Shown here: one piece after another, positions 17,583 to 54,489 of the stretch
How positions within the stretch are numbered: position 1 is the stretch's first letter
Layout: each line of letters starts with the position of its first letter
Origin: Acidobacteriota bacterium
Lineage (GTDB): Bacteria; Acidobacteriota; Terriglobia; Terriglobales; Acidobacteriaceae
Assembly (NCBI GenBank): GCA_003225005.1
Contig: QIAN01000108.1
Span: forward strand, 1 to 64,000
Direction of reading: 5' to 3'
Length of the DNA: 64,000 bases
Made by a program: the position numbers and the translations under genes
The notes under the pieces: generated by a model
The model's input: only the letters and a program-made list of their open reading frames with translations
Database searches by the model: none
What the model was told of the DNA's origin: nothing

Positions 17583-17909
17583 GGAACTGGAAGGTATCTG
17601 GCTTTGTTGACATCTTTGGCACGAGGGTTGGTTTAGAGATCGACAAAAAGGAGCGGTGGTTGTTTTCTGATGAGGCAGGAGGGACGGTGGCCGAGGTCGG
17701 ACTCCTACCGTTCGCGCGTGTGGCGCGGGAAGTGGCGCGTTCTGCCCGCCTACCGCAGCCGTTTGAGCAAACGCCAGTTCAACCAATACCTGGAGAGAGT
17801 GGATCCAAAACAGATTTGAAGGTACACGCGCTGCACGTTTGATAATGAAATGAGAGGGCCTGGCGCAGGTAGTTTCATCTGTGCGAAGAGCAAAGGAGAA
17901 ATAGCGAGC
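17583..17909. other. 327-bp stretch without a recognised gene
   Basis: It holds short frames on both strands with no family resemblance. Its right part should carry the promoter of the hydrolase gene, and an AAAGGAGAAA ribosome site lies at its end. Confidence 0.4.
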
Positions 17910-19931: not shown

Positions 19932-20517
19932 CCCGGCGGTATGTGAGCGGGATCTGGCCATGTTGACCGCGAGATGAGACGTTGAGTGCCAGGTCAAGTG
20001 GTTACGAAAGCGTTTACGTCTTTTCACGCGGGCGCCTCGGTCGTAAGTTTGACCCGCCAGTAGCGGATGGGCTACCCCTGTGTTAGTTTGGGAGAAAGAG
20101 CAGCAGTGAGGAAGGCCGCGTTAAGAACCATGGTCTCGGCAATCGGCGATGACCGCGGTACGCCTTTTCGCCAGCCCGACCAAATATGGAACGGGATCGC
20201 GCGACATATCGTGAAGATCATGGATTTATCATCATTGTGTAATCGAAGTTGCCGTTCGCTGGATAGAAATTGGCTTGAAGCCTGCGACCGGAACGACCGC
20301 GCTGCATATTGATCTTAAATGACCGAAATCCAAAAACAGGAGAGTGTGAATACTTTGACTGGTGCGGACTTAAGGATTTCCATGATCCATCAGGCTTTGG
20401 AGAATTGGTCTTGCAGGGCGAAACACGCTGTACGCTGAGTGAACGCCGAGGCCAGTCACCGGTGTAAGAACTACTTCTTAAGGTTGGCGCACTCTCGTCT
20501 GCTCTGATGGAGGTTGT
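19932..20517. other. 586-bp gap without a recognised gene
   Basis: Short open frames (for example 20067-20312) have no ribosome site or family likeness. The right end provides a GGAGG ribosome site for the oxidoreductase gene. I see no repeat or RNA gene. Confidence 0.45.
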
Positions 20518-21867
20518 GTGTCTGTACGAAAAGCTTCACGGCGGGACTTTCTGAAACTCACCAGCGCCGGTGTAGCCAGCGCTGCTTTGGGCGTCCCCGC
20601 ATCCAGCTACGCAAGAATCATGGGCGCGAATGATCGCGTCGGCGTCGCGATCGTTGGTTTTTCCGACCGCACACGAAGTAGTTTGATTCCTTCCTTCTTG
20701 AAAGTCGCCGGCGGCCTCAATTTCGAACTGGTCGCCCTCTCCGACATCTGGGGCCGGCGACGCGAAGAAGGAGCAACTTACATCGCGAAGCTCACCAATA
20801 AACAGGTGGCCCTCGCCCGCAACAACGAAGAGCTCTACGACAACAAGGATGTGCAGGCCGTCATCGTCGCCACCGCCGACTTCCAGCACGCGTTCCACGG
20901 AGTCGAAGCCATCCGCGCCGGCCGCGACGCCTATGTCGAAAAACCGCTCGCCCACACCATGGAGGACGCACAAGCCATTCGCAACGCCGTCAAGGACAGC
21001 GACCGTGTCTTCGCCGTGGGCACGCAGCGACGCAGCTCTGCCACCTATCAGAAGGCCTACGAATTCATCAAGTCCGGCCAGTTCGGCGACATCGTCTCCG
21101 TCGAGATGACCTGGAATGTCAACCAGCCTGGCCGCTGGCGCCGCCCCAAACTCGTTCCGCAGCTGCGTGAAGCGGACACCGACTGGAAGCGCTTTCTCAT
21201 CAATCGCCCCTTCGAACCGTTTGATGCCCGCAAGTATCTCGAGTTCCGTCTCTTCTGGCCTTTCTCCTCGGGGATTCCCGATCAGTGGATGGTCCACCAA
21301 ATCGACACGGTCCATTGGTTCACGGGATTGCCGCGTCCGCGCAGCGTCGTTGCCAATGGCGGCATCTACCGCTGGCACGACGGCAGAAAAAACTGGGACA
21401 CCATGACTGCGGTCTTCGATTACGGCCCGCTTGACGACCCCACCAGGGGATTCCAAGTCATTTACTCATCTCGGATGACCAATTCGGCCGGAGGCGTCAA
21501 AGAGTTGTATTATTCCAACGGCGGCACCATGGATCTGGACAAAAAACAGATCACTTCCGAAGGTGGACTCACCGAAAAACTCGCAGGCGAAATGGATATG
21601 AAAGCGAATCTTCTCCCAGCCGTTTCGCTCACCCAGGCTGCCTCCGCGGCCACCACTGCCACGGACGCCGGCGACGACGACATGACGGTCGACAACGTTC
21701 GGAACTGGCTGGAGTGTATCCGCAGCCGCAAAACCACCAACGCCTACATCGAAGCGGGCTACAGCCATTCCGTCGCGCTCTGCATGACCATTGCCGCGAT
21801 TCAGACCGGACAAAGAATCACTTTCGACGACGCAAAGCAGCACGTGGTCGTGAGAGGCCGCAGCTAA
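20518..21867 (+). CDS. TAT-exported Gfo/Idh/MocA-family oxidoreductase
   Basis: 449 residues from the GTG at 20518 with GGAGG upstream. A twin-arginine signal (RRDFLKLTSAG) at about 6-30 is followed by a Rossmann domain (VGVAIVGFSD) and the family-typical EKPLAHTMEDA block, with the catalytic-type Lys in EKP. The C-terminal substrate domain includes a WMVHQIDTVHWFTG motif carrying the conserved His pair. An exported sugar oxidoreductase or GH109-like redox glycosidase is likely. The next gene (DUF6807) starts two bases after its stop, so the two are cotranscribed. Confidence 0.92.
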   Translation: MSVRKASRRDFLKLTSAGVASAALGVPASSYARIMGANDRVGVAIVGFSDRTRSSLIPSFLKVAGGLNFELVALSDIWGRRREEGATYIAKLTNKQVALARNNEELYDNKDVQAVIVATADFQHAFHGVEAIRAGRDAYVEKPLAHTMEDAQAIRNAVKDSDRVFAVGTQRRSSATYQKAYEFIKSGQFGDIVSVEMTWNVNQPGRWRRPKLVPQLREADTDWKRFLINRPFEPFDARKYLEFRLFWPFSSGIPDQWMVHQIDTVHWFTGLPRPRSVVANGGIYRWHDGRKNWDTMTAVFDYGPLDDPTRGFQVIYSSRMTNSAGGVKELYYSNGGTMDLDKKQITSEGGLTEKLAGEMDMKANLLPAVSLTQAASAATTATDAGDDDMTVDNVRNWLECIRSRKTTNAYIEAGYSHSVALCMTIAAIQTGQRITFDDAKQHVVVRGRS

Positions 21868-21869
21868 CC

Positions 21870-22934
21870 ATGCGCATTCCCATTGCCGGTGCATCTCTCA
21901 TCCTCGTTGTTGTGGCTGCGTTTCTGACGTCTCTCGTCTCCGCCGGCCCCCATCCCCCCGACCGCGTTACCGTCGTCGTCAACGAACAAGCCCGCCGCGT
22001 CGACATCTCCATCGATGGCCAGCCATTCACATCCTACATCTGGCCGGCGACCCTGAAAAAACCCGTGCTCTATCCGCTGCGCACCGCCAAGGGCACCATC
22101 GTCACTCGCGGCTTTCCTCTCGAGCAGCGCCCCGGCGAACGCGTCGATCACCCCCATCACTCCGGCCTCTGGTTCAACTACGAGAGTGTCAACGGCATCG
22201 ATTTCTGGAACAATTCCGACGCCATCAAACCCGAAAATGCCCCAAAGATGGGCACCATTCTCCATCGTGCCATTGTTTCGGCAAAAAGCGGTTCGGAACA
22301 GGGCGAGCTCGATGTGGAAACGGATTGGCTCACCTACGACAAGAAAGTATTGCTCAAGGAGCATACCCACTTTGTCTTTCGTGGCGGGCCTGGATTCCGC
22401 AGCGTCGAGCGCATCACCACCCTGCGCGCTCTCGATGAAAAAGTTTCTTTCCCTGACGAAAAAGACGGCCTCTTGGGCCTTCGCGTAATCCGTGCTCTCG
22501 AAATCCCTTCCGGCAAACCTGAGGTCTACACCGACAGCAGTGGCCGCGCCACTACCGTCTCCAAGCTGGACAACATCGGCGTCAACGGCACCTACCTCAC
22601 CAGTGAGGGTAAAAAAGGCGACGCCGCCTGGGGCACGCGCGGCCGCTGGTGCAATCTCAGCGGTTTCGTCGGCGACGAGCCCGTCACCATCACCATTCTC
22701 GACCACCCTGCCAATCCGGGCTTTCCAACCTACTGGCACGCTCGTGGTTACGGTCTTTTCGCCGCCAACCCGCTCGGGCAGAAAATTTTCAGCGAGGGCA
22801 AGCATGAGTTGAATTTCTCTCTGCCGCCCAATGCCAGCGTCACGTTCCGCTATCGCATCTTGATCTCTTCGGCGATCGCCACGCCCGAAGCCACCGAAGC
22901 GGCCTACAAGGATTTCGTCGCCGCCTATCGTTGA
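21870..22934 (+). CDS. Secreted DUF6807 (PmoA-like) protein
   Basis: 354 residues from the ATG at 21870, two bases after the previous stop. A signal peptide (about 1-26) precedes a single domain with the characteristic DHPHHSGLWFNY block and the GFVGDEPVTITILDHPANPG region of the DUF6807/PmoA family. These proteins commonly sit beside Gfo/Idh/MocA genes in planctomycetes and Acidobacteriota. The biochemical role is unknown; a sugar-binding or sugar-modifying function is inferred only from partnership. It is unrelated to membrane methane monooxygenase despite the name. Confidence 0.9.
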   Translation: MRIPIAGASLILVVVAAFLTSLVSAGPHPPDRVTVVVNEQARRVDISIDGQPFTSYIWPATLKKPVLYPLRTAKGTIVTRGFPLEQRPGERVDHPHHSGLWFNYESVNGIDFWNNSDAIKPENAPKMGTILHRAIVSAKSGSEQGELDVETDWLTYDKKVLLKEHTHFVFRGGPGFRSVERITTLRALDEKVSFPDEKDGLLGLRVIRALEIPSGKPEVYTDSSGRATTVSKLDNIGVNGTYLTSEGKKGDAAWGTRGRWCNLSGFVGDEPVTITILDHPANPGFPTYWHARGYGLFAANPLGQKIFSEGKHELNFSLPPNASVTFRYRILISSAIATPEATEAAYKDFVAAYR

Positions 22935-23174
22935 TTCGACGGGTCCTGTTGTCGAGAGCTCACCCTCCAGGGCTGAGGTCTTCGCAATCCACCACTGCAT
23001 CCATCCATCGGACGCGGTCAACCAAATACAAAAATCTTCCACTTCGTCTCTTGCCAAAAATGGAACACTGAACAACAGATCACGTCTTAAAAAGGTTCTC
23101 GAATCAAACAGCGCAGTCTCATCGGATCATTTGGAAAAAATCACAAATCCGATTATTCTTCTTCTCTTACTTAG

Positions 23175-23199
23175 AACTGAAAACTGACAACTGAAAACT
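23175..23199 (+). repeat. Short direct repeat before the second oxidoreductase gene
   Basis: A unit starting ACTGAAAACTGACA is followed at once by ACTGAAAACT, ending five bases before the ATG at 23204. Similar CTGAAAACTGA repeats are scattered in acidobacterial genomes. It occupies the place of a ribosome site, for which there is no other good candidate. Confidence 0.6.
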
Positions 23200-23203
23200 T
23201 TCC

Positions 23204-24229
23204 ATGACCACCCACATCGGCCTCGTCGGCGGGGGCAACATCACGGTGACCCACGCCCGTGCCGCCCGTGCCATTTCTGGAGTCGAAATCTCCGCGATCC
23301 ACGGCACCAACGCCGAAAAACTCGCCCACCTCTGCCGCGAATACGGCGGCACGCCCTACCACGACTTCGACGCCTTCCTCCAGCATCGCCCCATGGATCT
23401 GGTGGTCATCGGCAGTCCTTCCGGACTGCACGCCGCGCAAGGCATCGCCGCGGCCACTCACGGCCTGCACGTCCTTACGGAAAAACCGATCGAAATCAGT
23501 ACCGCACGCGCCGACGCCCTCATCGAAGCCGCAAAACAATCCAAAGTCCAGCTCGGCGTGATTTTTCAGGACCGCATGAAGCCGCACATTCGCCAACTCA
23601 AAAACTGGGTCGATCAAGGCCTGCTCGGCAAGCCCTTGTTCGTCGACGCCCGTGTGAAGTGGTATCGCCCTCCCGAGTACTACGCCAATTCGCGCTGGCG
23701 CGGCACTCTGGCACTCGACGGCGGCGGCGCCTTGATCAATCAGGGTGTTCACACCATCGATCTGCTCCTTTGGCTGCTAGGTGATGTGGTTCGCGTTCAG
23801 GCGCGAACCGCCACTACGCTCCACAAGATCGAAGCCGAAGACACCGCCGTTGCCATCCTCGAATTCGCCAGCGGCGCCTTGGGCGTATTTCACGCCACCA
23901 CCGCCGCCTATCCCGGCTACCCCCGCCGCGTCGAAATCTCCGGCTCCGAAGGCACCGTCATCCTCGAACACGACCGCATCATCGCCGCCGATCTCCGAAA
24001 CCCCCCAGCCGCCACCACCGAATCCGCCGCCCTCGACGAAAACCAAAGCGCCTCTTCCGCCGTCGTCAGCGATTTCCGCAGCCACCAAGCCGTCCTCGAA
24101 AATTTTCTCCAAGCCATCCAACAAAACCGCGCCCCTGCAAGCGACGGCCTCGAGGGCCGCCGCAGCATCGCCCTCATCGAAGCCATCTACCGCGCCACAA
24201 AAACTCCCGATCGGGTCGCAGCCGTCTGA
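23204..24229 (+). CDS. Cytoplasmic Gfo/Idh/MocA-family oxidoreductase
   Basis: 341 residues without a signal. The Rossmann motif GLVGGGNITVTHARA comes first, then the EKPIEIS block and the C-terminal substrate domain with a GGGALINQGVHTIDLLLWL motif containing the catalytic-type His. It should oxidise or reduce a sugar or sugar acid with NAD(P). It lies 269 bp downstream of the DUF6807 gene, so it may have its own promoter. It differs from the 20518 gene in lacking a TAT signal, so the pair could act on opposite sides of the inner membrane. The substrate is unknown. Confidence 0.92.
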   Translation: MTTHIGLVGGGNITVTHARAARAISGVEISAIHGTNAEKLAHLCREYGGTPYHDFDAFLQHRPMDLVVIGSPSGLHAAQGIAAATHGLHVLTEKPIEISTARADALIEAAKQSKVQLGVIFQDRMKPHIRQLKNWVDQGLLGKPLFVDARVKWYRPPEYYANSRWRGTLALDGGGALINQGVHTIDLLLWLLGDVVRVQARTATTLHKIEAEDTAVAILEFASGALGVFHATTAAYPGYPRRVEISGSEGTVILEHDRIIAADLRNPPAATTESAALDENQSASSAVVSDFRSHQAVLENFLQAIQQNRAPASDGLEGRRSIALIEAIYRATKTPDRVAAV

Positions 24230-24512
24230 GCCGCAACCAAATGGCTGTTACCCACTCTCTATCTCACAAGCTGAGCGAACCATTTCTCTCGTGCTCGCCT
24301 TCCGGTTTCTTGGCAACGGCTCAGCTTCCGACATCCGGACTACACATCCAAGTGAAGTTAGTTAGGCCCACCGCAACTCCTCAGAACGGGACTTGAACGG
24401 AGCCGCCCGGTGGCGGACGCTACGCGTGAGGTGAACGGAGCAGCAGTTGCCTAACGGATGAGATAGGTTTGGGTCAGAACGAGGTGTCCCTGTGCCTATC
24501 TCGGAAAAATAA

Positions 24513-24690
24513 TGCTGGAGGAACCCCAGCGTCGCCTGGTTGCGACCAAAGCCCGATGTATTTCCTGGCAAGCGTGGTCATAGCAGTGATCGCCCCATCA
24601 CTCTCAAGCTGATCTACCATGCCTGTAAAAGAGCCGCCCGGCGGGCCGCACTCCAGAAAGGCGTGCATCCCCACACCTTGCCGGCGTGGA
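24513..24690 (+). pseudogene. Tyrosine recombinase (integrase) C-terminal fragment
   Basis: The frame reads LRPKPDVFPGKRGHSSDRPI, then KLIYHACKRAARRAALQKGV followed by HPHTL. This matches the segment before the HxxR box of XerC/D-like or IS-associated tyrosine recombinases, which normally continue RHSFATHLLEAG. Here the sequence diverges right after HPHTL, and no catalytic Arg/His/Tyr remains. A stop lies in frame upstream at 24510. Confidence 0.65.
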
Positions 24691-24774
24691 CGGCTGGGCG
24701 TTGCCAATGGCGCATGCCAGCATTTGCATTACTTCTTTCGGCACGAACGCCTGCAGGCAGGAGGCACAAGCGTA

Positions 24775-26643
24775 TCACTTGAGTTCCAGCTTCCAACTGT
24801 GGGTTCCCGTGCCGGCTGGAAGGTGGATCAGCACGGGCCTTTCAGCCAATTGCGAAGTGTTGAGAGGCCCGGCCATCCGGCCATCCACAATCATGTTCGC
24901 AGTGGCTGACTGCTTGATTTTGTCTACAAGCGGATCAGCCAAGAGCAGCCTCCACGACGAAGGGTGATTCCCGAAGTAGGCGCCATAAGGTTCTTCATAC
25001 TGAAAGCCAAATTCGATGCCTTCGCTAGCAGAGGTGACCTGAGCGTGCAGAATTCCGACGTAGTGGTTCATGCTTAACGTCATCGTATCTTTCGGTAAAG
25101 CATTGAACGTACGCTCGACGAAATCGTGTTGCAACGAAATGTCGCGATCGTGGAAGAGAAGCACAAATGGGCCGTCCGAATGCTGCGGCCACTTCTCGGG
25201 ATGCAGCTCGCGATCGTATTGGTGACCCGAGGCCGGCGAAATGCCCGTCATGTCCAGCGCCAAGTCGCGATCCAGATAGAAATAGCTCTCGTTGATATCG
25301 AAAAGCCCGAAACCAGCTTGGGCAGCCACACGCGCGCTGTGATTCTGATAGGACTTCGACCAGCCGCCGCCACCGATAATGACGGAGAGTGGGCGCGCGC
25401 CGAAGTCCTGGCGCAAGTAATCCAGCGACCGCTTTAAATGGAACAACTGGGCAAGCGCCGGAGCTTCGACCCCGCGCCGCGTGTCTTCAAACTCTTCGTA
25501 CCAGCCACCGACAGATGCCTCGCCATCCAGATCGGCGGTCCACCACGGGCCTGGCGGAGAATCCAGGTCGGGCTGCATGTGGGTCCAGCCATGGCTCTGA
25601 ATCTCGAGCACTCCTGCTTCAACCGCAGCCTTCAGACCGCGCTGCGTCGATCGGTAGTCCTGCTCGACGCCGTAGTCATCCGTAAATTTCTGGTTCCACG
25701 GAGAGATGACGCGATGGGTCTTGCGATCGACAAAACCCGTGACCACATTGGCGGAGACAACCGCATGATGGTGGGCCAGAACGGGTATGACTTTATCGCG
25801 TATCAACTCCTCGGTAACCGTCTGATAACGCCAGTAAGAGAGGAAGGATTTGTCCGCGGCTCCCCAGTCGTCGATCATCACGAGCACGCGTCGGGAGTAA
25901 TCCACGTCCGGCAAAACCAGATATCGCAAGCCCCACAGCAGAGAACGCTGGAAGATGTTTCTCCAGTACGGCGAGTCGAGTAAGGATCGCATATCGGGCG
26001 CGCCTATCCAAACCGCGGCCGTGTCCGGGCTCGGCTGATACACAGTCAACACCGGGTGGCGGCCCTGGCTGAGGAGCGCCTGAGCACCGCGGCATTCCAC
26101 CCAAATATGTAAGGACTGTTCGCGCCCGGGTTTTGTATCATCCATCAACTCGCGCGTGATGAAGTGGACCGGCCCACGAAGAACCGGATCAGGGGCGCGA
26201 TAGTCCGCTTTGTAATGGAGGCCTAGAATCCGTTCCAGCGCGGGGTCGGTAAATCGCGAAGCGGCGACAATGATGCTGGTTCCCTGCTGCACCGCCTCGG
26301 TGAGCATCGCCAGATTCTTCCCGGCGTAGGACGGCATATCAGCGAGCCAGAGCATTGCGCCATAGCGCACTGCGCCAGAACGATCGAACAGGTACGAGGC
26401 CCCGAGGGTCTGCTGGTCTAACCGGAGAATATCGAAGGGAACGGACCAGGCTTTGAGCAGCGCGGCTACGGGCTGGAAAGCGTCTTTCTCACCGATCACC
26501 TGGCTGGCCGGATCACCCCAGCCCGCGACAACCACGAGCACACGGTAAGGTTTCAGAACGCACGGTTTCGGAGGCGCCTGACCCTGAATCGCACAGAGGG
26601 CCAACAATGCGACAGCGAGTAAACGGCCCATATGCAACTGCAT
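24775..26643 (-). CDS. Secreted two-domain protein with NodB-like deacetylase motifs (copy 1)
   Basis: 622 residues. A signal peptide (best read from the second Met at 26631) is followed by an N-terminal Rossmann-like domain (about 30-240) with no known catalytic motif. The second domain carries polysaccharide-deacetylase hallmarks: Asp258-Asp259 in MIDDWG (TFDD position), His351 and His355 in HGWTHMQPD (HxxxH zinc pair), and a late LLFHDRD motif (LxH position). A metal-dependent N- or O-deacetylase acting outside the cytoplasm is the best guess; no member I know of has this layout. Its start lies three bases after the stop of the acetyltransferase gene, in an operon with a TonB receptor. A paralogue at 58903 keeps all motifs at the same numbering. 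Confidence 0.75.
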   Translation of the reverse strand: MQLHMGRLLAVALLALCAIQGQAPPKPCVLKPYRVLVVVAGWGDPASQVIGEKDAFQPVAALLKAWSVPFDILRLDQQTLGASYLFDRSGAVRYGAMLWLADMPSYAGKNLAMLTEAVQQGTSIIVAASRFTDPALERILGLHYKADYRAPDPVLRGPVHFITRELMDDTKPGREQSLHIWVECRGAQALLSQGRHPVLTVYQPSPDTAAVWIGAPDMRSLLDSPYWRNIFQRSLLWGLRYLVLPDVDYSRRVLVMIDDWGAADKSFLSYWRYQTVTEELIRDKVIPVLAHHHAVVSANVVTGFVDRKTHRVISPWNQKFTDDYGVEQDYRSTQRGLKAAVEAGVLEIQSHGWTHMQPDLDSPPGPWWTADLDGEASVGGWYEEFEDTRRGVEAPALAQLFHLKRSLDYLRQDFGARPLSVIIGGGGWSKSYQNHSARVAAQAGFGLFDINESYFYLDRDLALDMTGISPASGHQYDRELHPEKWPQHSDGPFVLLFHDRDISLQHDFVERTFNALPKDTMTLSMNHYVGILHAQVTSASEGIEFGFQYEEPYGAYFGNHPSSWRLLLADPLVDKIKQSATANMIVDGRMAGPLNTSQLAERPVLIHLPAGTGTHSWKLELK

Positions 26644-26646
26644 CCG

Positions 26647-27807
26647 TCAAGCAGTAAGGAAAATCTTGCGCTTGTACATCCAATACAACACAAGCCACTC
26701 GATGGTTAGAACGGCAATCGCATGAAAAAGCGGTGTGAACGAGCCCAGTGTTCCGCCGAGCGAATGCGTAAAGATCGCTACTATATTGCTCCAGGGGATA
26801 ATGCTCTCCGACATGTAGATCGCCACCGCATTCATGCCGATCACCAAAAACGGGAAGGCCAGTTTTCTATAGCCACGGACATCCACCAGCCAGTAAAAAA
26901 CGAGAAACATCAGGCAGGCAAAGCCGGCCGACGCCAGTCCATAGGAGGTGGTCCAGATCTTCATCACGATTGGGATCACAGGGTTCAAGGCCCAACCGAG
27001 CACGACGCCGGACAGCCCGACCATACCGATGGTTTTCATTTTGCTCGCCGTGCTGCGGTTCGTCATAAGAAGCTCGCCCAGTAGCATGCCGACGATCGTG
27101 GTGGAGATGGTCGGCAGGGTGCAGATGACCGTGCCCCAGTGCTCGGGCAGCACGCGGCCCACGGTGACCAGATCGGTCCACAGAACTAAGTTCGCGTTTC
27201 TGTCGTAGCTGCCGGCAGGAACGCCTGGCGCTGGTACGAATGCCAGCAGAAGAGCATAGAAAACCAGGATTCCGGCGCCCACCGCGGCCTGGAACCGCCA
27301 TGATCTGCGCACGATCAGAAAAGCCGCTAGGTACGCAACTGCGATCGGCTGTAACGCACTGCTCAGCTCGATGAGGTAAGGACGGTTGAAATGAATGGAC
27401 TCCCGAAGCGAGCCTAGCAAAAACAGAACGAGGAACCGGCGCAAAACGCGCATCAAGATCTGGCGATGAGTTTGCGTGAGCGACCGCTTGGCGTAGGAAA
27501 ACGGCAGCGACATGCCCGTCATCAGCATGAATGACGGCCAGATCAGATCATAAAACCGCAGGCCTTGCCAATCTGAATGATTGAGCTCGTAGACCAGGGC
27601 GTTGATCACGCGATTGGCGTTGAGTGCTTGCAGTCCGGCAACCAGCGCCGATCCCCCCACAATCCAAAACATGGTCCAGCCGCGAAATGCGTCAAGCGAA
27701 GATAGTCGTTTGGTTCCCGGGGAGATGTCCATGCGCAGCGAAGACGAAGTCGCTGGCTCAGCTTTGGTTTCCGTTGCGGTTGCGGTGGTGGAACGGCCGA
27801 TGGCCAT
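26647..27807 (-). CDS. Polytopic acetyltransferase, DUF5009/NagX type
   Basis: 386 residues from the ATG at 27807, with GGAG upstream. After a short polar N-terminus comes RLSSLDAFRGWTMFWIVGG, the signature of the DUF5009/COG4299 family related to heparan-alpha-glucosaminide N-acetyltransferase, including the conserved DxFRG. About ten transmembrane helices follow. Relatives move acetyl groups across the membrane onto amino sugars. It starts 19 bp after the receptor stop and ends three bases before the NodB-like gene, so the three are one transcription unit. That it acetylates the sugar released or modified by its neighbours is an inference. Confidence 0.88.
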   Translation of the reverse strand: MAIGRSTTATATETKAEPATSSSLRMDISPGTKRLSSLDAFRGWTMFWIVGGSALVAGLQALNANRVINALVYELNHSDWQGLRFYDLIWPSFMLMTGMSLPFSYAKRSLTQTHRQILMRVLRRFLVLFLLGSLRESIHFNRPYLIELSSALQPIAVAYLAAFLIVRRSWRFQAAVGAGILVFYALLLAFVPAPGVPAGSYDRNANLVLWTDLVTVGRVLPEHWGTVICTLPTISTTIVGMLLGELLMTNRSTASKMKTIGMVGLSGVVLGWALNPVIPIVMKIWTTSYGLASAGFACLMFLVFYWLVDVRGYRKLAFPFLVIGMNAVAIYMSESIIPWSNIVAIFTHSLGGTLGSFTPLFHAIAVLTIEWLVLYWMYKRKIFLTA

Positions 27808-27826
27808 CAGAACACTCCATGGGCTC

Positions 27827-30800
27827 TCAAAATTTGAGCTTGAGGCCAAATTGGATATCACGCGGGCTGGCAGCGCTCGTGAGTTGGCCGAACGCGCTGG
27901 TAGCTATGGTGGCGCCGGGGGTGCCGAAATTAGGGTGATTGAATATGTTGAAAAACTCGGCGCGGAATTCAAGGTTCACCTTCTCGGTGATCGGATTTCG
28001 CTTAATCACAGAGACATCCCACTGCTGGGTGCCCGGTCCGATCAATATATTGCGGCCGGCATTCCCAAAGCGAGGCGTCCCATTGGCCAAAGCTTGCGCC
28101 AGTGCGGTGGTCGAGAAGCAATTGACATTGAACCACTCCGCCACAGTTTGGGGACCGGCGCCATTGCATATGCGATCCGGCCTCGGAGCATATGCGTCGG
28201 TGTTGGAGAAATCCTCGTTCGCCAGGACGGAAAAGGGGAAGCCGCTCTGAAACGCAATGATGCCAGAAAGTTCCCATCCCCCCGCCAGAGCATTAACCAG
28301 TCCGCCACTGTTCAAGAAGGGTTGGCTTTTTCCAAACGGTAACTGCCAGATGGGACTGAGGACGAGCCGCTGTTTAATGCTCAAGTCCGACAAGCTATAG
28401 TCTGCCCTCTGATTATTGTCGTTCTGGTCCGCGGAAACAAAATCTGAGTTGCCTCCGTTGAAATCGAGCGCCTTGGAGTAGGTGTAGGAGATCAGAGCCT
28501 GGAAACCCTTGGACAACCTCTTGGTGACTTTAGCCTGAAGGCCATTGTAGTTGGAGATGCCGTCAAAAGTGTCGTAGAGCATGGTGTTGAAGTCGGGCCA
28601 GGGGCGACGAGGCTGTACGTCGCCGACTCCGGGCACTGCTTGATTGCCCCATTGATGAGCATTGTCAATGTGGACGCCCCGATTGCCAACATACCCAATC
28701 TCCACCGCCAAGTTCTGCATTACCTGTGACTGAATGCTGATACTCCACTCGTATATGGTTGGCGTATGGTAAAACGGAGTCGGCATGAGCTGCGAAAGGA
28801 TCTGAGACAGAGGAACCGATGCGGCATTTGCAAACATAATCTGTGTTGTGGTTGGTACGCCGTTGGTCAGCGGAGGCGGAGAACCGACGGCCGTGTTGTA
28901 AGCAGGCGATTGAGTCGATACCGGGTTGTTGTTGACATAGGAACCAATGGAGTTGGTGATGGGCAAATCATTGAATACACCGGCGCCGGCGTGAACGATG
29001 AGCTTGTCGGAATTGGGCCGCCAGGAGATCCCCAATCGTGGCGCAAAGCTCCCGTGGCCGGGACCATAGCTGAGTTCCCGCAGCTTATTACCCGTCAGTC
29101 CAACCCGCGTCCTCATTGCCGAGCTCATGATCACACACTGTCCGTTAATGTTGAGGTAGTGGGGGTCCGAGCAGAGCGCGTCGTTCACCGCGGCAGGCAG
29201 AGCAGTGACCAGCAAAGCATCTCCCGGCGTCGAGTTGTGCGCCAGAGGGTAGATGGTGGCCAGCTGGTTGTTCTGATCATAGGGCTGCTTACGATACTCC
29301 CACCGTAGCCCGACCTCAACGCTCAATCTCGAGTTGACGCGAATATTATCCTGGGCAAACAAGCTAAACCATCCCCCGCCGAGCAATTTATTGACAAACG
29401 GATTCTTCGTGAAAAATCCGTCCGAAGGGTAACCCAACTCCAGATCGGCCAGGTCGGAAACTGCGCTAACTCCCGGTATTTCAGCCGCCAACGAGGAGAA
29501 CTGCCCGTTGAAAGTGAGGGATCCATTCAGCTCGATGGGGTCTTCCACTGCGGGGGTCTGCCAGAAATTCAGATCGCCGCCGACGTTAATGGTATGCTTC
29601 CCAACGATTTTGGTGAGAGTATCTTCGTACTTCTCAATCCTATCCTTAAGAACATCCGGGCTATAACCGCCGTCCCCCCACCCGGCGAAATTGGTAAAAT
29701 TAACCAACGGATACTCCTCGAACTGAGGCGAACTCGCCTGCAGGTTTTGAATACCAAAGCTGGCCAAAAGTCCGCTTGCGCGGGGGAAGCCCTGAGGAGC
29801 GCGGATCAGATAATCCTGCTGGTAACCTACGCGCGCGTCGTTGATCAAGGTGGGGCTGAAAATGTGGGTCCAGCCCCCCACCACGTTCTGGCCTCTAAAA
29901 TGTTGATAGAGGTTAAACGGATCGAAATTTCCCGGAAACAGTTGGTTCGAATTGCCAAACAGGTAACGGCCAAACAAGCGGTCCTTGTCGGACAGCACCT
30001 CGTCGACGCGCACGTCAAATTGTTCGTCCTGGCGCCGCGCCGGCGTCTGGTTGATATAATTCGGGTTTCCGGAGCGGTTGGGCGCCGGAAAAAGCGCCAA
30101 GACCTTTTGCGCCACCGGATCGATATTGGTAACGATATTTCCCGACATCGGCGTACCCACCAGAACTGTGGAGGTCCCCGCGCTGGGGTTTGCCGGGTTT
30201 GGCGGACACGGGAAAAGGTGCTCCGAAGCCGGATTGAACAATTGACCCGTGTCGAAGTTGAGGTTGGCAGGAGCGGCGGAGCCACTGGCGGCGCAGAGGT
30301 TAGCGGTTTGTCCGGTAAGAAAAGAACTGAAATCTCCCGCTTTCTCGGCGGCCGTGGGAACGAAACTGCCCTGGGTCTGGCCTTGAATCAATCGCAGTCC
30401 TTCATAGCTTCCAAAAAAGAACGTCTTGTTCTTCCGAATCGGACCACCCAGGGCGCCGCCATATTGGTTGCGGATGAATTCTGGTCGATCCGTGGCAAAG
30501 AAGTTGCGCGCATCAAGATCCCGGTTGCGCACGTACTCCCACGCGGAGCCATGAAAGCTGTTGCTGCCCGATTCCGTGATCAGGTTCATTGTTGTACCGG
30601 AGGTAATTCCAAACGCCGCGTCGTAAGTATTATTCTCGATCTTGAATTCTTTCACCATTTCCGGAACGGGTTGCAGAGCGAACCCGCCATTGTTGAGTGC
30701 CCGGGAGATCATCCCGTCGATCAAGATCAGATTGCCGGAAGAATGCCCACCCGAGCCGCTGTAGCTATTGTCGTTGAACCCGGACCCGTTGCCGTTTGCG

Positions 30801-31333
30801 GAGGCCAGCGATCTGTCGGTGGTGTCTACAGTGCCGGGCACCACCAGCGCAAGCGCTCCCGCGCGCCGCAAATTGAGCGGCAAATCCAGAATGGGTTGTT
30901 GGTCGACAACCGTTCCCAAGCTGGCGCTGGTGCCGTCCACCAGAGGGGCTGCGGCGTTTACGGTCACCGATCCCGTCACGTGGCCTACTTGCAGCACGAC
31001 ATCCAAGTTGGCCTTTTGGTCCACGTTCAGAGAAATGCCGGACATCACTCCCGTCGCGAAACCAGCTTTTTCCACCGAAAGAGTGTAGATTCCCGGAGCC
31101 AGCGCGAGGAAGATGTAGTCTCCAGAGGCGCCCGACGTGGTCCTTGTGACCAAGCCCGTACTGACATTGGTGGCCGCCAAGACGGCCTCAGGCACCATGG
31201 CGCCGGCCGGGTCTTTAACCGTACCGGCCAGTCTGGCCGTCACTTCCTGAGCCCTGCTGGGCCACACCGAAAGCAACATGATCAACACCAGCACACAACA
31301 GCCGCGCTGAAGCCTGCGATCCTTGGATGTCAT
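27827..31333 (-). CDS. TonB-dependent receptor with carboxypeptidase-regulatory-like domain (Oar-like)
   Basis: 1168 residues from the ATG at 31333 (GGGAGGAGATG upstream). The signal peptide is about 1-30. Next come a CarboxypepD_reg domain (about 32-115: ARLAGTVKDPAGAMVPEAV, SGDYIFLALAPGIYTL), a plug-like region, and a long beta-barrel that ends in FGLKLKF with the terminal aromatic residue expected for outer-membrane insertion. The APRPDRICNGAG, RAEFFNIFNHPNF and ASPRDIQFGLKLKF blocks are typical of Acidobacteriota receptors. It is the first gene of the operon with the acetyltransferase and the NodB-like protein. The minus-strand frame stays open upstream of the start to about 31585, but that part lacks a signal and a ribosome site. 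Confidence 0.9.
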   Translation of the reverse strand: MTSKDRRLQRGCCVLVLIMLLSVWPSRAQEVTARLAGTVKDPAGAMVPEAVLAATNVSTGLVTRTTSGASGDYIFLALAPGIYTLSVEKAGFATGVMSGISLNVDQKANLDVVLQVGHVTGSVTVNAAAPLVDGTSASLGTVVDQQPILDLPLNLRRAGALALVVPGTVDTTDRSLASANGNGSGFNDNSYSGSGGHSSGNLILIDGMISRALNNGGFALQPVPEMVKEFKIENNTYDAAFGITSGTTMNLITESGSNSFHGSAWEYVRNRDLDARNFFATDRPEFIRNQYGGALGGPIRKNKTFFFGSYEGLRLIQGQTQGSFVPTAAEKAGDFSSFLTGQTANLCAASGSAAPANLNFDTGQLFNPASEHLFPCPPNPANPSAGTSTVLVGTPMSGNIVTNIDPVAQKVLALFPAPNRSGNPNYINQTPARRQDEQFDVRVDEVLSDKDRLFGRYLFGNSNQLFPGNFDPFNLYQHFRGQNVVGGWTHIFSPTLINDARVGYQQDYLIRAPQGFPRASGLLASFGIQNLQASSPQFEEYPLVNFTNFAGWGDGGYSPDVLKDRIEKYEDTLTKIVGKHTINVGGDLNFWQTPAVEDPIELNGSLTFNGQFSSLAAEIPGVSAVSDLADLELGYPSDGFFTKNPFVNKLLGGGWFSLFAQDNIRVNSRLSVEVGLRWEYRKQPYDQNNQLATIYPLAHNSTPGDALLVTALPAAVNDALCSDPHYLNINGQCVIMSSAMRTRVGLTGNKLRELSYGPGHGSFAPRLGISWRPNSDKLIVHAGAGVFNDLPITNSIGSYVNNNPVSTQSPAYNTAVGSPPPLTNGVPTTTQIMFANAASVPLSQILSQLMPTPFYHTPTIYEWSISIQSQVMQNLAVEIGYVGNRGVHIDNAHQWGNQAVPGVGDVQPRRPWPDFNTMLYDTFDGISNYNGLQAKVTKRLSKGFQALISYTYSKALDFNGGNSDFVSADQNDNNQRADYSLSDLSIKQRLVLSPIWQLPFGKSQPFLNSGGLVNALAGGWELSGIIAFQSGFPFSVLANEDFSNTDAYAPRPDRICNGAGPQTVAEWFNVNCFSTTALAQALANGTPRFGNAGRNILIGPGTQQWDVSVIKRNPITEKVNLEFRAEFFNIFNHPNFGTPGATIATSAFGQLTSAASPRDIQFGLKLKF

Positions 31334-31597
31334 GACGTCATCTCCTCCCTCGAAAGTTCTCGAGCCACGCCCCTGATCTCGCTGTATCATGATGGCGCCC
31401 GTCACCAAACTCAATGTACTGACCGACTGGGCGCTGAGAGTGAGCTCGACTCGCGCGCCAGCCAGGCAGTTGCGCTCGATGGCGGTGCCGTCCACCTGCA
31501 CTTCGAAGCCGAACGTCTGCCCGCCGTTAGCCGCGCCGGTGAAGCTTCCGACGGTGGTGCCAGGCAGGCTGCATTTCTTGACCCTTTAGATTAGCGA

Positions 31598-32047
31598 TCA
31601 CGCTAGGGCGGCCGAATCCGCATTGTCAATCAAATTCGAGCACGGGCTCGACAATTTGTCTAATTGGCTGAACAGCCATATGCGTGACCGTTTCCCCGCC
31701 CAAGTCACTGCCCTGAGGATTCGATCTTGACCGGGATGAAACCTAGCGCCCTCGGAAATGTCGGCCGCGGTTTGTCGAACCAGTTGGCCGAAGTAGGTAA
31801 ACTCTTCCCTTCTGATCTTTGCCGTCGTGCCCGCCACGCTGATGGCTGCATTAACATTGCCGGAGTGGTCGAAAACTGGCGCTCCGGCTGAGGAGTTTCG
31901 AATGGCCAATCGGCTTTGCGCGCCTGTACCCGCTACCGCGATGGCGGCGATCCCACCGCCGGTAAGATCGAGGATTGGGTTGCCAACGCAAGGGCAGCCG
32001 ATCTCACCATCCTCGATGGCGCAGCCGATCCGGCCGATCTCCGCCAT
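31598..32047 (-). pseudogene. IclR-type regulator, C-terminal fragment with internal duplication
   Basis: The frame starts within the effector-binding domain and lacks the winged-helix DNA-binding half. The strand motif of the IclR domain appears twice in tandem: first with NPILDLTGGGIAAIAVAGTG, then with APVFDHSGNVNAAISVAGTT, followed by the normal REEFTYFGQLVRQTAADIS end. The intact regulator at 56554-57348 has this motif once (APVFDENQKAVAAISVAGTA). It lies upstream of the GH20-like gene on the opposite strand and may once have regulated it. Confidence 0.7.
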
Positions 32048-32226
32048 TTTGCAGCTTCAGTCTCCGGATCGAGTTATTGGGTTGCGGGTTAGGATGCTCG
32101 CCTGTGCCCGCACTATATGGCGGCGGTGCGCCCTTCAAAAAATGTTCAGCCTATTGGATGGCGCACGGCGACGCTGGCATATCGCGATTGTGCCGGGTTT
32201 GCCGCTGGCGTACGATAGGCAATTCG

Positions 32227-34290
32227 ATGGTGCAACTTCTCCTTTTTTGCTTGCCGTTTTTCCTGGTGACGCCTTTGCAGGCCGCTCACAGGCCGCTGGT
32301 GCCGCGGCCGCAGCAGATTCAATACGGCAATGGAAGGCTCGCGCTCAAAGGTATTGCGATTTCGTTCAGTTCGAGTCCGGCACCAGAAGACCGCTTCGCG
32401 GCAGACGAGCTGGCCTCAGCACTTTCAGAAATCATCGCTAAACCCGTGCCCGTAGTAAGTAGTAGAACCGCGGCTGGTGGCATCGTATTCTACCGGACGG
32501 GTGCTGTGGATGCATTGCCCGGCCCCGATGATCGTCCGGGGCCGGATTCCAGGGAATCGTACACGTTGAGCATTTCTGGTAGCAGGGCCGAAATTCGTGC
32601 ACGATCTTCGGCCGGCTTCTATTACGCCGTGCAGACCATCCGGCAGTTGGTGGAGGAAAGCGCTGGCGAGAGCTTTCTGCCGGAAGTGGTCATTCATGAC
32701 TGGCCGGCCCTCGCCTACCGCGGCTTCATGATGGACACCAGCCACGGACCGCTGCCAACCGAGGACGAGATCAAGCGGCAAATTAATTTCCTCGCCCGCT
32801 GGAAAGCCAACCAGTACTATCTCTACTCCGAAGCGAATATCGAGCTGCGCGGCTATCCGCTGATCAATCCTGGAGCACGTTACACAGAGTCACAGATCCG
32901 ACGAATCATTGATTACGCGAGGGAGAGGCACGTCGGCATCGTTCCTTGCCTCGAACTCTATGGTCACCTGCACGACGTATTTCGGGCGGAGCGGTACGCG
33001 GATCTGGCTGCGCTGCCGCACGGAGGCGAGATCAATCCACGCGATCCCCGGGTGCAGAGCATGTTGCATGACTGGGTGGAGCAACTTACGGCACTGTTTA
33101 CCAGTCCGTGGTTTCACGTCGGTATGGATGAGCCATGGGAATTAGAGAAAGCGGGCAGCAAAGCCGCCGGGGGCGTGGAGCCTGGGAAGCTGTACATCGA
33201 GCAGTTGAAGAACATCACCGCGCTGGTGCGGCAGTTTGGCAAGCGCCCGATGTTCTGGGCCGATGTAAACAGCGGCGCCCGAATCTTTGTCAGGTACCCC
33301 GAGCTGTTTGGGCAATTGCCTAAGGACGTGATTGCGGTGCCGTGGCACTATCATGTCGAGCCGGACTACAGCGGTTTTGTGGCCCCGTTCGCGCGGGAGA
33401 AAGTGCCGGAAGTGTTTGCCCCCGGCATCTGGTGCTGGGATGAAATTACGCCAGACTTTATCCGGACCTTCGAAAACATCGACGGGTTTTTGGCTGATGC
33501 GCGCAAATACGGCACGATGGGCATGATCAATACGGGTTGGGCGGATGCTTCGCAGGTGCTCTACCGGACCGCACTGCCCGGCATAGCATACGGAGCCGCC
33601 GCAGCGTGGCAGAGAGAACCCATGAATCGCGCGCATTTTTTTGCCGACTACGCAGCATCATTCTATTCCGCGCCGGTGGCGGCCGAAGTGGCGCCGGCGC
33701 TCGAGGCGCTGGCAAAAGCGCAGCAGCTTATGGAAGAGATCCTGGGTTCGGAGACCGTCTTTCGATTATGGGATGATCCGCTGACGTCGGAGCGGCTGGA
33801 GCGCCTCGCGGCGCACCGCGAATCATTCCGCAACGTCCGCCTTCTGGCGGAAGACGCCGAGGAGCACCTGGCTCGCGCCTTGAGCCTCGAGGAGGACGTC
33901 TACTCGATTCCGAGCCTGGTTCTGGGGGCGCGCATGCTGGACTACGCGGGAATGAAGTACATTTACGCACTGGAAATGGCCAGCTATTTCAATACGCTGA
34001 GCAGCCATCCCAGTCATGCCGACGTCCAGTTCTATCTGGGATGGGAATCGAGCGCGCGCAATCACGGACGCATCATGGACCTGATGGATGAAATCTCGGA
34101 TCTGCGCGAAGTGTACCGTGCGGCATGGCTGAGCGAATACACGGACCACCGGCTAAGCAGCGTGATGGGGCGGTGGAATGCCGAATACGAATATTGGAGA
34201 CGCTTACAGACCCGCCTGTGGGACGTGCTGAACGGTTTCAAAGATGGCGATACGCTGCCGACACTCGAAGAACTCCGGTCGCACATGTAG
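32227..34290 (+). CDS. Secreted GH20-like glycosidase (copy 1)
   Basis: 687 residues from the ATG at 32227. A signal peptide (about 1-18) precedes a GH20b/zincin-like N-terminal domain (about 22-135: PRPQQIQYGNGRLAL, RSSAGFYYAVQTIRQL). The TIM barrel begins at YRGFMMDTSHGPLPTEDEI. The Asp301-Glu302 pair in FHVGMDEP, with His297, matches the HxGxDE motif of beta-N-acetylhexosaminidases, where Glu is the acid and Asp orients the substrate acetamido group. A C-terminal helical domain (about 500-680) follows. The upstream frame to 31975 is rejected for lack of a ribosome site. A paralogue lies at 52263. Exact substrate unknown. Confidence 0.88.
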   Translation: MVQLLLFCLPFFLVTPLQAAHRPLVPRPQQIQYGNGRLALKGIAISFSSSPAPEDRFAADELASALSEIIAKPVPVVSSRTAAGGIVFYRTGAVDALPGPDDRPGPDSRESYTLSISGSRAEIRARSSAGFYYAVQTIRQLVEESAGESFLPEVVIHDWPALAYRGFMMDTSHGPLPTEDEIKRQINFLARWKANQYYLYSEANIELRGYPLINPGARYTESQIRRIIDYARERHVGIVPCLELYGHLHDVFRAERYADLAALPHGGEINPRDPRVQSMLHDWVEQLTALFTSPWFHVGMDEPWELEKAGSKAAGGVEPGKLYIEQLKNITALVRQFGKRPMFWADVNSGARIFVRYPELFGQLPKDVIAVPWHYHVEPDYSGFVAPFAREKVPEVFAPGIWCWDEITPDFIRTFENIDGFLADARKYGTMGMINTGWADASQVLYRTALPGIAYGAAAAWQREPMNRAHFFADYAASFYSAPVAAEVAPALEALAKAQQLMEEILGSETVFRLWDDPLTSERLERLAAHRESFRNVRLLAEDAEEHLARALSLEEDVYSIPSLVLGARMLDYAGMKYIYALEMASYFNTLSSHPSHADVQFYLGWESSARNHGRIMDLMDEISDLREVYRAAWLSEYTDHRLSSVMGRWNAEYEYWRRLQTRLWDVLNGFKDGDTLPTLEELRSHM

Positions 34291-34304
34291 GAGGTCCACA
34301 ACGC

Positions 34305-34620
34305 ACGACGTCCACAGGCGCGCCCCAATCCAGTGCTTTCTGGTTCTCGTGCTGGTGAACCTGACGTGGGCCTTTCAATTCTCCGGCACGAAGATCGACG
34401 ACCGAGCGCGTCGGCCCAATAGCCGTTGCCTTCATCCCGCGGGCGTTCTCGACCGTGCTGTTTGTACCGCTAGTGCTCATAAGCCGGGCAAGAAGCCCCA
34501 GCCGCGGTGGGCTCCCGTGGTTTGGCGGGACCTTTTCCTCGCTTCGACGCTTGGCATTATTCCAGCGCAGTTCGGCCTCGCCTGGGGTATGGCGCATTCG
34601 CGGCCCCGTGCATTCTTTTC
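34305..34620 (+). pseudogene. EamA/DMT-family transporter N-terminal remnant
   Basis: Three frames together recover an EamA start. One reads IQCFLVLVLVNLTWAFQFSG, the next GPIAVAFIPRAFSTVLFVPL, and a third DLFLASTLGIIPAQFGLAWG. These are consecutive parts of the first three helices of a drug/metabolite transporter, so at least two indels have broken it, and nothing recognisable follows. The remaining sequence up to 34838 contains no other gene. Confidence 0.65.
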
Positions 34621-34838
34621 GGTTATTCCGCCCAGGAATGCAACCGAGAGAAAAGGCTCTTGCCAAACAACAGCTGATTGGCTAAATAATGATGCTGTGC
34701 TGTGTGCCCGCTGTTGGCCGGTTTTGGGGTGACCACCGAGGTTGCCCGGCCGTCCCGTCGTGATTCAGATTCCGGCCGGGATGGGCAGTCGGCTTCCAGG
34801 TTCGGGCGCAAGCTTTCGTGCCAAAAGGAAAGAATACG

Positions 34839-48769: not shown

Positions 48770-48934
48770 AGAGTTCTAACCTCGGCTGTGACGTAATCGA
48801 AAGCAGATCGGCGTGGGAAGACCAGGAAGACGTCCAATGCACTCAAGGTTCAGATGTGGAGCATTGCCACATTGAGAGTGGATTTTGCTTGTGCATCTGT
48901 AATTCTCTCCATTCAAAAAGGGGGAACAAGTAAT

Positions 48935-50136: not shown

Positions 50137-50164
50137 CGTTCCACATATTCAGAAAGGGGAGCCC

Positions 50165-50236
50165 ATGACTGACCAGCAAATAAGCAGGCAAGAGAACAGA
50201 GGCCCGGCCGCAGGATCTTCCCGGGAGCTGACGTGA
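50165..50236 (+). CDS. 23-residue ORF coupled to the D-aminoacylase gene
   Basis: AAAGGGGAGCCC precedes the ATG, and the ORF ends at TGA overlapping the GTG start of the next gene (GTGA at 50233-50236). The peptide starts MTDQQISRQENRGP and has no recognised family. It may be a leader peptide for translational coupling or a leftover of a longer gene. Confidence 0.35.
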   Translation: MTDQQISRQENRGPAAGSSRELT

Positions 50237-51771: not shown

Positions 51772-51791
51772 GTCCGCTACCATCGGGGTCT

Positions 51792-54356: not shown

Positions 54357-54489
54357 CCTGACGCAGCCGGGCCGTTGCCTCAAGCTGTTGGAGTGACGTC
54401 CCGGTAAGGCGCATCGGTTAATTGCCCCGGAAGGCAAGCTGAATCGCGCAGGCGAGCCCCTGACGGAGGGTGATTATCCGAAGTAATTC

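Follow-up and report, generated by a model that had tools for sequence, protein, structure and literature searches.

A recurrent gene pair for a predicted NodB-like de-N-acylase and a NagX-like acetyltransferase in an Acidobacteriota operon

The operon and a second cluster in the window

The window, a stretch of 64,000 nt of DNA from a soil-type Acidobacteriota bacterium, contains a minus-strand operon that reads from position 31333 to position 24775. Its first gene (27827 to 31333) encodes a TonB-type outer-membrane receptor of 1,168 aa (CarboxypepD_reg and OMP_b-brl_4), which matches PF25183 (E = 7e-225) and PF13620; the second (26647 to 27807) encodes a predicted NagX-like, HGSNAT-fold transmembrane acetyltransferase of 386 aa, and the third (24775 to 26643) encodes a putative NodB-like de-N-acylase of 622 aa that is probably exported. 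The gaps between the genes are 19 and 3 bases; we confirmed the coordinates on which a preliminary description of this DNA had based its account of three closely spaced same-strand genes. Ahead of the receptor gene lie an IclR regulator remnant (31754 to 32014, minus strand), consisting only of C-terminal pieces spread over two frames, and a gene for a divergent GH20 family protein (32227 to 34290, plus strand) with a signal-peptide-like start and an HVGMDE motif, which reads away from the operon.

A second cluster in the same window comprises genes for a D-aminoacylase/OngB-like amidohydrolase (50233 to 51771, plus strand), a GH20 family protein with a VSIGFDE motif (52206 to 54356, plus strand), an intact IclR regulator (56554 to 57381, minus strand), a DHDPS-family protein that may be a KDG aldolase (57849 to 58796, plus strand), a second predicted NodB-like de-N-acylase of 628 aa (58903 to 60789, plus strand), and a second TonB-type receptor (61415 to 64000, plus strand), the open frame of which extends to contig position 65359. 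Beyond the window, after this receptor, a second NagX-like gene is found at about contig positions 67250 to 68374. The second NodB-like copy, which went unmentioned in the preliminary description, is 53 to 55% identical to the first. The genome has three NagX-like genes, and two of these sit in the clusters of its two intact NodB-like genes.

Sequence features and predicted folds of the two enzymes

The NodB-like protein begins with a hydrophobic stretch (residues ~1 to 21) and has the D-D, HxxxH, and LxH motifs attributed to it earlier, at Asp258-Asp259, His351-xxx-His355, and Leu496-Phe-His498. In an alignment of 23 homologues, Asp259, His355, and His498 never vary, and Asp258 and His351 hardly do: the protein of locus L037 has His at position 258, and that of L033 and the second copy of L034 have Gln at 351. 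No Pfam or NCBIfam model scored over its curated cutoff, and NCBIfam gave no match at all; Pfam Polysacc_deac_1 (PF01522) reached 15.2 bits (E = 0.022), below its curated cutoff of 23.1 bits, and matched 15 of the 23 family members at E values of up to 1 (best, 5.4e-7). A profile of the 23 sequences found no match among PDB chains at E values of up to 10, and none of 51 pattern stretches in the viral collection searched was a relative. Judged from the alignment only, the base-activating arginine of CE4/CE18 enzymes (MT3 or CM3) was not identified, and a GGGG stretch at residues 424 to 427 lacks the directly preceding Arg present in several homologues. PelA is active without such an arginine, according to the available portion of one report (PMC12022489).

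The structural model of the NodB-like protein (pLDDT, 87.3; pTM, 0.89) predicts a ThuA/GATase-like domain (residues ~31 to 241), a NodB barrel (~247 to 534), and a C-terminal beta domain (~540 to 622). Residues 247 to 534 match 3qbu (Z, 14.5; rmsd, 3.2; 209 residues aligned), and the motif residues lie at strand ends, a placement judged from the strand ends and not from coordinates. The model thus predicts the NodB fold that had been expected around Asp258, His351, and His355, with His355 in one of two segments (354 to 366 and 368 to 379) modelled below a pLDDT of 50. The proposed structure and family searches gave no curated family match, and it is by the predicted barrel and the Asp-Asp/HxxxH/His motifs that we assign the protein to the NodB/CE4-like fold superfamily.

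The longest structural alignments were with Agd3 (6nwz: Z, 16.3; rmsd, 9.0; 454 residues aligned), PelA (9cgy: Z, 13.8; rmsd, 5.4; 436 aligned), and human NDST1; the values for 9f6z were a Z of 16.4 and an rmsd of 9.9 over 394 residues. Since the rmsd is large (5 to 10), the relative placing of the domains differs between the model and these proteins. All three surfaced only in this second comparison and were absent from the 50 Foldseek matches listed, which were mostly to single domains and included GH enzymes, GMP synthetase, ThuA-like proteins, and polysaccharide deacetylases; their TM-scores by query length were at most 0.27. The N-terminal domain, previously called uncharacterised, has a recognisable predicted fold, and the model shares with CE18 (Agd3), CE21 (PelA), and NDST enzymes the order of an alpha/beta domain followed by a NodB-type domain. 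The same layout is described for the N-deacetylase part of NDST1, Agd3 (CE18/CBM87), PelA (CE21), and PelADA (CE26/CBM114) in the available portions of four reports (PMC7229062, PMC10864358, PMC12022489, and PMC13254593), in which the counterparts of D258/D259/H351/H355/H498 are D319/D320/H389/H393/H529 in human NDST1, D377/D378/H510/H514/H668 in fungal Agd3, and D262/D263/H350/H354/H488 in PelADA; PelADA also has an Asp three residues past the last His (D491, corresponding to D501 here). The NodB-like protein differs from NDST1, Agd3, and PelA in having no sequence similarity to them that the 23-member profile could detect among PDB chains and from NDST1 in being too short for a sulfotransferase part; unlike the genes of these enzymes and PelADA, its gene sits among catabolic genes and with a NagX-like gene.

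The NagX-like protein matched the NCBIfam NagX model (NF046061) at an E value of 3.6e-65 with 220.5 bits, short of the 480-bit equivalog cutoff, and fell just under the cutoff for DUF5009. Its length is inside the reported NagX range of 309 to 395 aa; unlike bacterial NagX, it reaches only part of the equivalog score, and its gene is paired with a predicted de-N-acylase gene. Its model (pLDDT, 75.7) matches HGSNAT (Z, 34.6; rmsd, 3.0; 339 residues aligned; 22% identity), although it is shorter (386 versus 663 residues) and the match begins at about HGSNAT residue 263. Among the structural matches listed, HGSNAT entries have Z scores of 30.5 to 34.6 and GWT1, another acyltransferase, has scores of 19 to 20; the remaining rows do not exceed 5.1. 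His77 aligns with HGSNAT His297 and is conserved in all 10 sequences aligned. The predicted HGSNAT-type fold and catalytic histidine bear out the earlier assignment to a membrane acetyltransferase family related to heparan-alpha-glucosaminide N-acetyltransferase.

Linkage of the pair and its neighbouring genes

A NagX-like gene was found near the NodB-like gene in 14 of 29 loci, so that the co-occurrence set beforehand as a test extends beyond this genome. In 13 of these 14 paired loci, the two genes adjoin or one gene intervenes; they are co-directional in all 14, and both gene orders occur. A search of 396 genomes of the phylum gave six strong NodB-like matches in 5 genomes (two in this genome and four elsewhere), each with a NagX-like gene nearby, adjacent except for one at 6.5 kb, and no NagX-like gene was near any of the seven distant homologues examined. 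Given this repetition, and with two of the genome's own three NagX-like genes in NodB-like clusters, we rejected chance adjacency. Five loci (L027, L033, L042, L043, and L044) have no NagX-like gene though ~4 kb or more flanks the NodB-like gene on each side, and the NagX-like gene of L037 is broken across two frames. Distances within the two protein families correlate (Mantel r, 0.55 for 13 pairs and 0.62 for 11 pairs; P = 1e-4, the lower limit with 9,999 shuffles); L037 was left out because of its split gene, and the stretches for L041, L051, and L070 are tblastn segments in whole or in part. We take the correlation as supporting evidence, as it still includes the shared species tree. The two protein trees agree in part, with A (the operon's own pair)/L024 and L030 placed differently. 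Nothing on this gene combination was found in the accessible parts of the open-access literature searched.

The receptor is not supported as a constant partner. Searches with both window receptors picked up a TonB-type gene in 5 of the 14 paired loci (both clusters of this genome, L024, L030, and L031); some of the contigs of the remaining loci are short. The window receptor family gave 75 match rows in the genome. Of the three-part module proposed in the preliminary description, the NodB-like/NagX-like pairing and the amino-sugar theme are supported, and the receptor as a fixed part is not.

Amino-sugar catabolism is suggested by the genes that recur near the NodB-like genes (GH20, OngB-like, OngC-like, and DHDPS-family). 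The GH20 proteins retain the D-E motif; the GH20 mechanism uses the 2-acetamido group of the substrate itself. OngB-like and DHDPS-family genes occur together in the fuller clusters (the second in the window, L029, and L031), with an OngC-like gene in L029 and L031; around the operon, the genes scanned (17850 to 36902) include none of the OngB-, OngC-, or DHDPS-like types. The OngB-like protein of the window matches PpOngB (9kb1) at an E value of 1.1e-61 and, better, D-aminoacylase at 4.6e-82, so that its substrate may be either GlcNAc1A or N-acetyl-D-amino acids. L031 resembles the ong cluster for oxidised chitin of Pseudoalteromonas prydzensis in joining a TonB-type receptor, GH20, and proteins of the OngB type (D-aminoacylase-like) and OngC type (an Ala_racemase_N/D-ser_dehydrat protein). 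It differs in its DHDPS-family gene and in the added NagX-like and NodB-like genes; an IclR regulator stands in place of MurR/RpiR in the second window cluster, L030, L036, and L039. Two further assignments were dropped: no protein named GH109 was among the 23 PDB sequences listed for a Gfo/Idh gene at 20518 to 21867 (phmmer, E ≤ 1e-5), and the L027 GH27 protein is closer to alpha-galactosidase (6f4c; E = 2.7e-103) than to alpha-N-acetylgalactosaminidase (1ktb; E = 3.5e-77), so that it lends no support to a GalNAc polymer.

Possible roles of the pair

From the genes, predicted folds, catalytic-type residues, and recurrent linkage, we infer activities, a substrate, an order of steps, and import by the receptor. 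The reading we prefer, at a probability of roughly 45%, is a unit of periplasmic amino-sugar glycan catabolism with de-N-acylation and re-N-acetylation before GH20 cleavage. The exported NodB-like protein, as a metal-dependent de-N-acylase, would strip N-acyl groups, probably acetyl, off hexosamine residues in a glycan that is either imported or at the surface; the NagX-like protein would transfer acetyl through the membrane via His77, with cytosolic acetyl-CoA as donor, and N-acetylate free or chain-terminal periplasmic amino sugars; and the exported GH20 protein would then free N-acetylhexosamine. In the fuller clusters, the OngB-like deacylase and DHDPS-family aldolase, with the OngC-like PLP enzyme in L029 and L031, may process an oxidised product of the GlcNAc1A type to KDG and pyruvate. 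In its favour are the linkage, the Mantel correlation, the deacetylase layout and residues, the HGSNAT fold and aligned histidine, fitness data that tie NagX to glucosamine use (PMC9007349), the GH20 motif, and the Ong-like neighbours. Against it, removing and restoring an acetyl group on one sugar would consume acetyl-CoA to no purpose, unless the two steps differ in acyl group, position, or substrate. The five flanked loci without NagX, the changed residues in L037, L033, and the second L034 copy, the split L037 gene, the arginine not identified, the low-confidence segments, the operon's lack of Ong- and DHDPS-like genes in the region scanned, the breadth of NagX-like genes in the phylum (44 of 149 genomes), and the partly discordant trees also count against it.

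A possible but less probable explanation is salvage, in which the NodB-like protein modifies a polymer or oligomer and the NagX-like protein only turns free glucosamine from any source into GlcNAc for uptake. NagX serves glucosamine use and has been proposed to acetylate periplasmic glucosamine, both from fitness data in the available portion of one report (PMC9007349). Salvage also fits the finding that NagX-like genes are widespread whereas few genomes have a strong NodB-like match. A specialised partner is suggested instead, though only indirectly, by the close linkage in either gene order and by the correlated distances, shared species tree included. Profile scores cannot decide here: the genome's own copies, being part of the query alignment, necessarily score high (651 and 644 bits), and several other NagX-like genes outscore the paired G243 copy (212 bits), so we dropped the idea of a specialised NagX group defined by score.

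A more specific proposal, which we consider unlikely, is an N-acyl-exchange unit in which an NDST/Agd3-like de-N-acylase and then an HGSNAT-like re-N-acetylase would act on the same residues in the periplasm, converting residues at which GH20 would be blocked by a free amine or a foreign acyl group into GlcNAc or GalNAc ends that it can cleave. It is quite improbable that the group removed is specifically a non-acetyl one (formyl, glycolyl, or hydroxyacyl), replaced by acetyl so that the sugar fits the GH20/GlcNAc pathway. Such a replacement would do away with the futile cycle and would fit the tight linkage of two opposed enzymes sharing a compartment with a GH20 protein, but the characterised structural relatives of the NodB-like protein act on N-acetyl groups, as far as the available portions of their reports go.

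We also strongly doubt a role like that of Agd3 and PelA, in which the operon would modify exopolysaccharide or envelope of the cell itself and the acetyltransferase would tune the degree of acetylation. These two proteins do give the longest structural alignments, and in L034 a gene for an HlyD-type membrane-fusion protein is found two genes ahead of NagX; however, the subset of neighbours scanned included none named as a polysaccharide synthase, and the GH20, GH27, OngB-like, OngC-like, and DHDPS-family neighbours are of a catabolic type. That the NagX-like protein is a sugar transporter without reacetylation, as suggested for TfMurT, a putative N-acetylmuramate transporter distantly related to NagX (PMC9007349, available portion), is highly implausible given the dominance of HGSNAT and GWT1 among the structural matches listed and the invariant histidine.

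The pair, a predicted exported deacetylase-like protein and a membrane reacetylase-like protein, is found again in related bacteria, in the company of sugar-degrading genes. Knowledge of how soil Acidobacteriota use glycans is limited. As a conserved pair of predicted opposed N-acyl enzymes, the two genes predict a processing step that textbook pathways of chitin and GlcNAc do not contain. The NodB-like protein is a candidate for a new carbohydrate esterase family, subject to CAZy agreement. The pair also provides a small bacterial setting for the study of NDST-like and HGSNAT-like enzymes; the human counterparts of both are important in heparan sulfate biology, and loss of HGSNAT causes Sanfilippo C disease. 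If the exchange unit were true, counterparts of the enzymes that start heparan sulfate modification and aid its lysosomal breakdown would stand together in one bacterial catabolic operon.

The operon and its two enzyme candidates

We confirmed the compact, one-strand arrangement of three genes: a TonB-type receptor gene (31333..27827; Pfam OMP_b-brl_4 and CarboxypepD_reg), a NagX-like gene (27807..26647) and a NodB-like gene (26643..24775) lie on the minus strand with spacings of 19 and 3 bases, in a host genome of 7.9 Mb in 550 contigs. The NagX-like protein scored just under the cut-off for Pfam DUF5009 and matched NCBIfam NagX (E 3.6e-65) with 220.5 bits against a 480-bit cut-off. The NodB-like protein (P0001, 622 aa) matched Pfam Polysacc_deac_1 under the cut-off (E 0.022) and had no match in an NCBIfam scan. 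Between the operon and a GH20 gene lies an IclR regulator remnant (31754-32014, minus strand; C-terminal pieces only, in two frames). A sulfatase with TPR repeats is encoded at 34818-36902 (plus strand), and at the homologous locus L024 a 67% identical protein is encoded directly 3' of the NodB-like gene.

By a crude hydrophobicity measure, the N terminus of P0001 looks like a signal peptide. The AlphaFold2 model (pLDDT 87.3, pTM 0.89) contains the NodB fold expected around Asp258/His351/His355: residues 247-534 matched NodB enzymes (3qbu; VIA-align Z 14.5, rmsd 3.2, 209 aligned), although His355 falls in one of two segments with pLDDT below 50 (354-366; the other is 368-379). In the model, strand 252-260 carries Asp258 and Asp259 close to its end, strand 346-350 is directly followed by His351, and strand 493-498 ends with His498. 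The deacetylase-type motif of the preliminary description was borne out, with Asp259, His355 and His498 kept in 23/23 sequences and Asp258 and His351 in nearly all (alignment A3). That description had called the N-terminal domain uncharacterised; the domain is present, but in the model it is recognisable as ThuA/GATase-like (residues 33-241; 2gk3, Z 18.0, rmsd 3.3, 194 aligned). The 50 Foldseek matches listed were mostly single-domain. Among the VIA-align matches listed, the most residues were aligned with the de-N-acetylases Agd3 (6nwz; Z 16.3, rmsd 9.0, 454 aligned), PelA (9cgy; Z 13.8, rmsd 5.4, 436 aligned) and human NDST1 (9f6z; Z 16.4, rmsd 9.9, 394 aligned; and 8ccy; Z 15.3, rmsd 10.3, 379 aligned). 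PelADA was absent from the matches listed, and a 23-sequence profile of the family reached none of the PDB chains, even at E 10. The reported catalytic sets are D377/D378/H510/H514/H668 for Agd3 (PMC7229062), D319/D320/H389/H393/H529 for NDST1 (PMC10864358) and D262/D263/H350/H354/H488, plus D491, for PelADA (PMC13254593). The counterpart set in P0001 is D258/D259/H351/H355/H498, with D501 beside it.

The NagX-like protein matched human HGSNAT by phmmer (E 6.7e-7), and its AlphaFold2 model (pLDDT 75.7, pTM 0.76) matched the HGSNAT fold with Z 34.6 over 339 residues; besides HGSNAT, only GWT1, likewise an acyltransferase, exceeded Z 5.1 among the structure matches listed. HGSNAT works across the membrane, acetylating amino sugars on its far side. 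The same far-side reaction has been proposed for NagX in a report that also names HGSNAT His297 as the histidine carrying the acetyl group (PMC9007349). His77 of the NagX-like protein aligned to this residue in the phmmer alignment (position counted by hand) and was kept in 10/10 aligned sequences.

Linkage of the NodB-like and NagX-like genes

We compiled 29 distinct loci from a peptide-pattern scan (25 loci), a search of 396 genomes of the phylum (at most three candidates scored per listed genome) and the two window copies. The 25-locus set is incomplete because it came from two short patterns over one collection; 21 of its 25 named loci are labelled as Acidobacteria/Acidobacteriota, Acidobacteriaceae, Bryobacterales or Solibacter, and the other 4 as KSB1, Alphaproteobacteria, Gemmatimonadales and Thermodesulfovibrionales MAGs. 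G004, G083, G361 and G414 were taken as L031, L032, L037 and L041, because their contigs agree in length and the gene positions correspond, and each was counted once; L025 and L026 share one MAG, as do L033, L045 and L048, so that these loci are not independent.

The two genes adjoin, or have one gene between them (L032), at 13/29 loci (the window operon, L024, L029, L030, L031, L032, L034, L036, L037, L038, L041, L051 and L070). At the second window copy, the NagX-like gene follows on the same strand, 6.5 kb downstream, giving 14/29 paired loci; co-occurrence thus extends to other genomes. NagX comes first in seven pairs and NodB in seven, and all 14 are co-directional. Among the 15 unpaired loci, the NodB-like gene is truncated by a contig or locus end at five (L040, L045 to L048), less than 2.5 kb is available on one side at five (L025, L026, L028, L035, L039), and no NagX-like gene was found at L027, L033, L042, L043 or L044, where each flank extends for about 4 kb or more. 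Matches at E < 1e-200 in the 396 genomes comprised six genes in 5 genomes (both window copies and one each in G243, G284, G361 and G414), five with NagX adjacent and the sixth being the second window copy. No NagX-like gene was found at seven distant-homologue loci (L022, L023, L072-L076; E 1e-4; L023 and L075 short on one side), a count that leaves out G150 (two matches) and G468. NagX-like genes in general are present in 44/149 phylum genomes, so that their mere presence would not account for the adjacency.

The distance matrices of the two proteins correlated (Mantel r 0.55 for 13 pairs and 0.62 for 11 pairs, p 1e-4), with species relatedness left in. Both trees group the window operon with L024, L029 with L031, L034 with L036 and L038, and L041 with L070, but the placements of the window operon/L024 and of L030 differ between them.

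In the host genome, a third NodB-like gene is in fragments (L019:7883-8370, G000:C511; pieces of 40% and 67% identity) beside TonB-type receptor matches and is a decayed copy. L034:5368-9005 holds tandem NodB-like genes. Gln replaces His351 in the second of these and in L033, and His replaces Asp258 in L037; these changes possibly entail loss or change of activity.

Neighbouring genes and the second cluster

The second cluster (48854-64000, continuing to contig position 68374) encodes GH27, OngB-like, GH20, SDR, IclR, DHDPS family, NodB-like, receptor and NagX-like proteins, including candidate parts of an oxidative GlcNAc1A pathway. Its IclR gene is intact, in contrast to the remnant beside the first operon. 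The GH27 gene (48923-50127, plus strand) is split over two frames, whose matches to the uninterrupted L029 protein overlap, reflecting a frameshift or assembly error.

A survey of part of the neighbouring genes found GH20 family members (at least 50% identity) at both window clusters, L027, L029, L031 and L046, with weak matches (22-23%) at L036 and L039; OngB-like amidohydrolases at the second cluster, L029, L031 and L036; and DHDPS family members at the second cluster, L029, L031, L039 and L046. Ala_racemase_N plus D-ser_dehydrat proteins occur at L029 and L031; OngC is described as a PLP deaminase of fold type III that is related to D-serine deaminases (PMC9537276). The window OngB-like protein matched D-aminoacylase at E 4.6e-82, versus E 1.1e-61 for PpOngB, and has four strong matches in its own genome, itself included. 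Both window GH20 proteins keep the Asp-Glu motif (HVGMDE, VSIGFDE); the genome gave six GH20 match rows, two of them in these clusters. An HlyD-type gene occurs at L034 and an oligopeptide-type ABC transporter at L030. Glycan genes also occur at loci without NagX (GH97 and GH2 at L042, GH32 at L043), and a heparinase II/III-like protein is encoded near the NodB-like gene at one such locus in a Gemmatimonadales MAG (L044:6677-8599, minus strand).

A possible role in glycan catabolism

The enzyme pair and its catabolic setting are well supported; the activities of the two proteins are predicted from modelled folds and conserved residues. The receptor, previously presented as the importing part of the module, may import a glycan, but a TonB-type receptor was seen at only 5/14 paired loci. 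The main weakness of the pair interpretation is the apparent futile cycle. GH20 enzymes require an acetamido group. The pairing would be understandable if de-N-acylation by the NodB-like protein created or exposed amines that then needed re-acetylation ahead of cleavage, or if the pair swapped a foreign N-acyl group.
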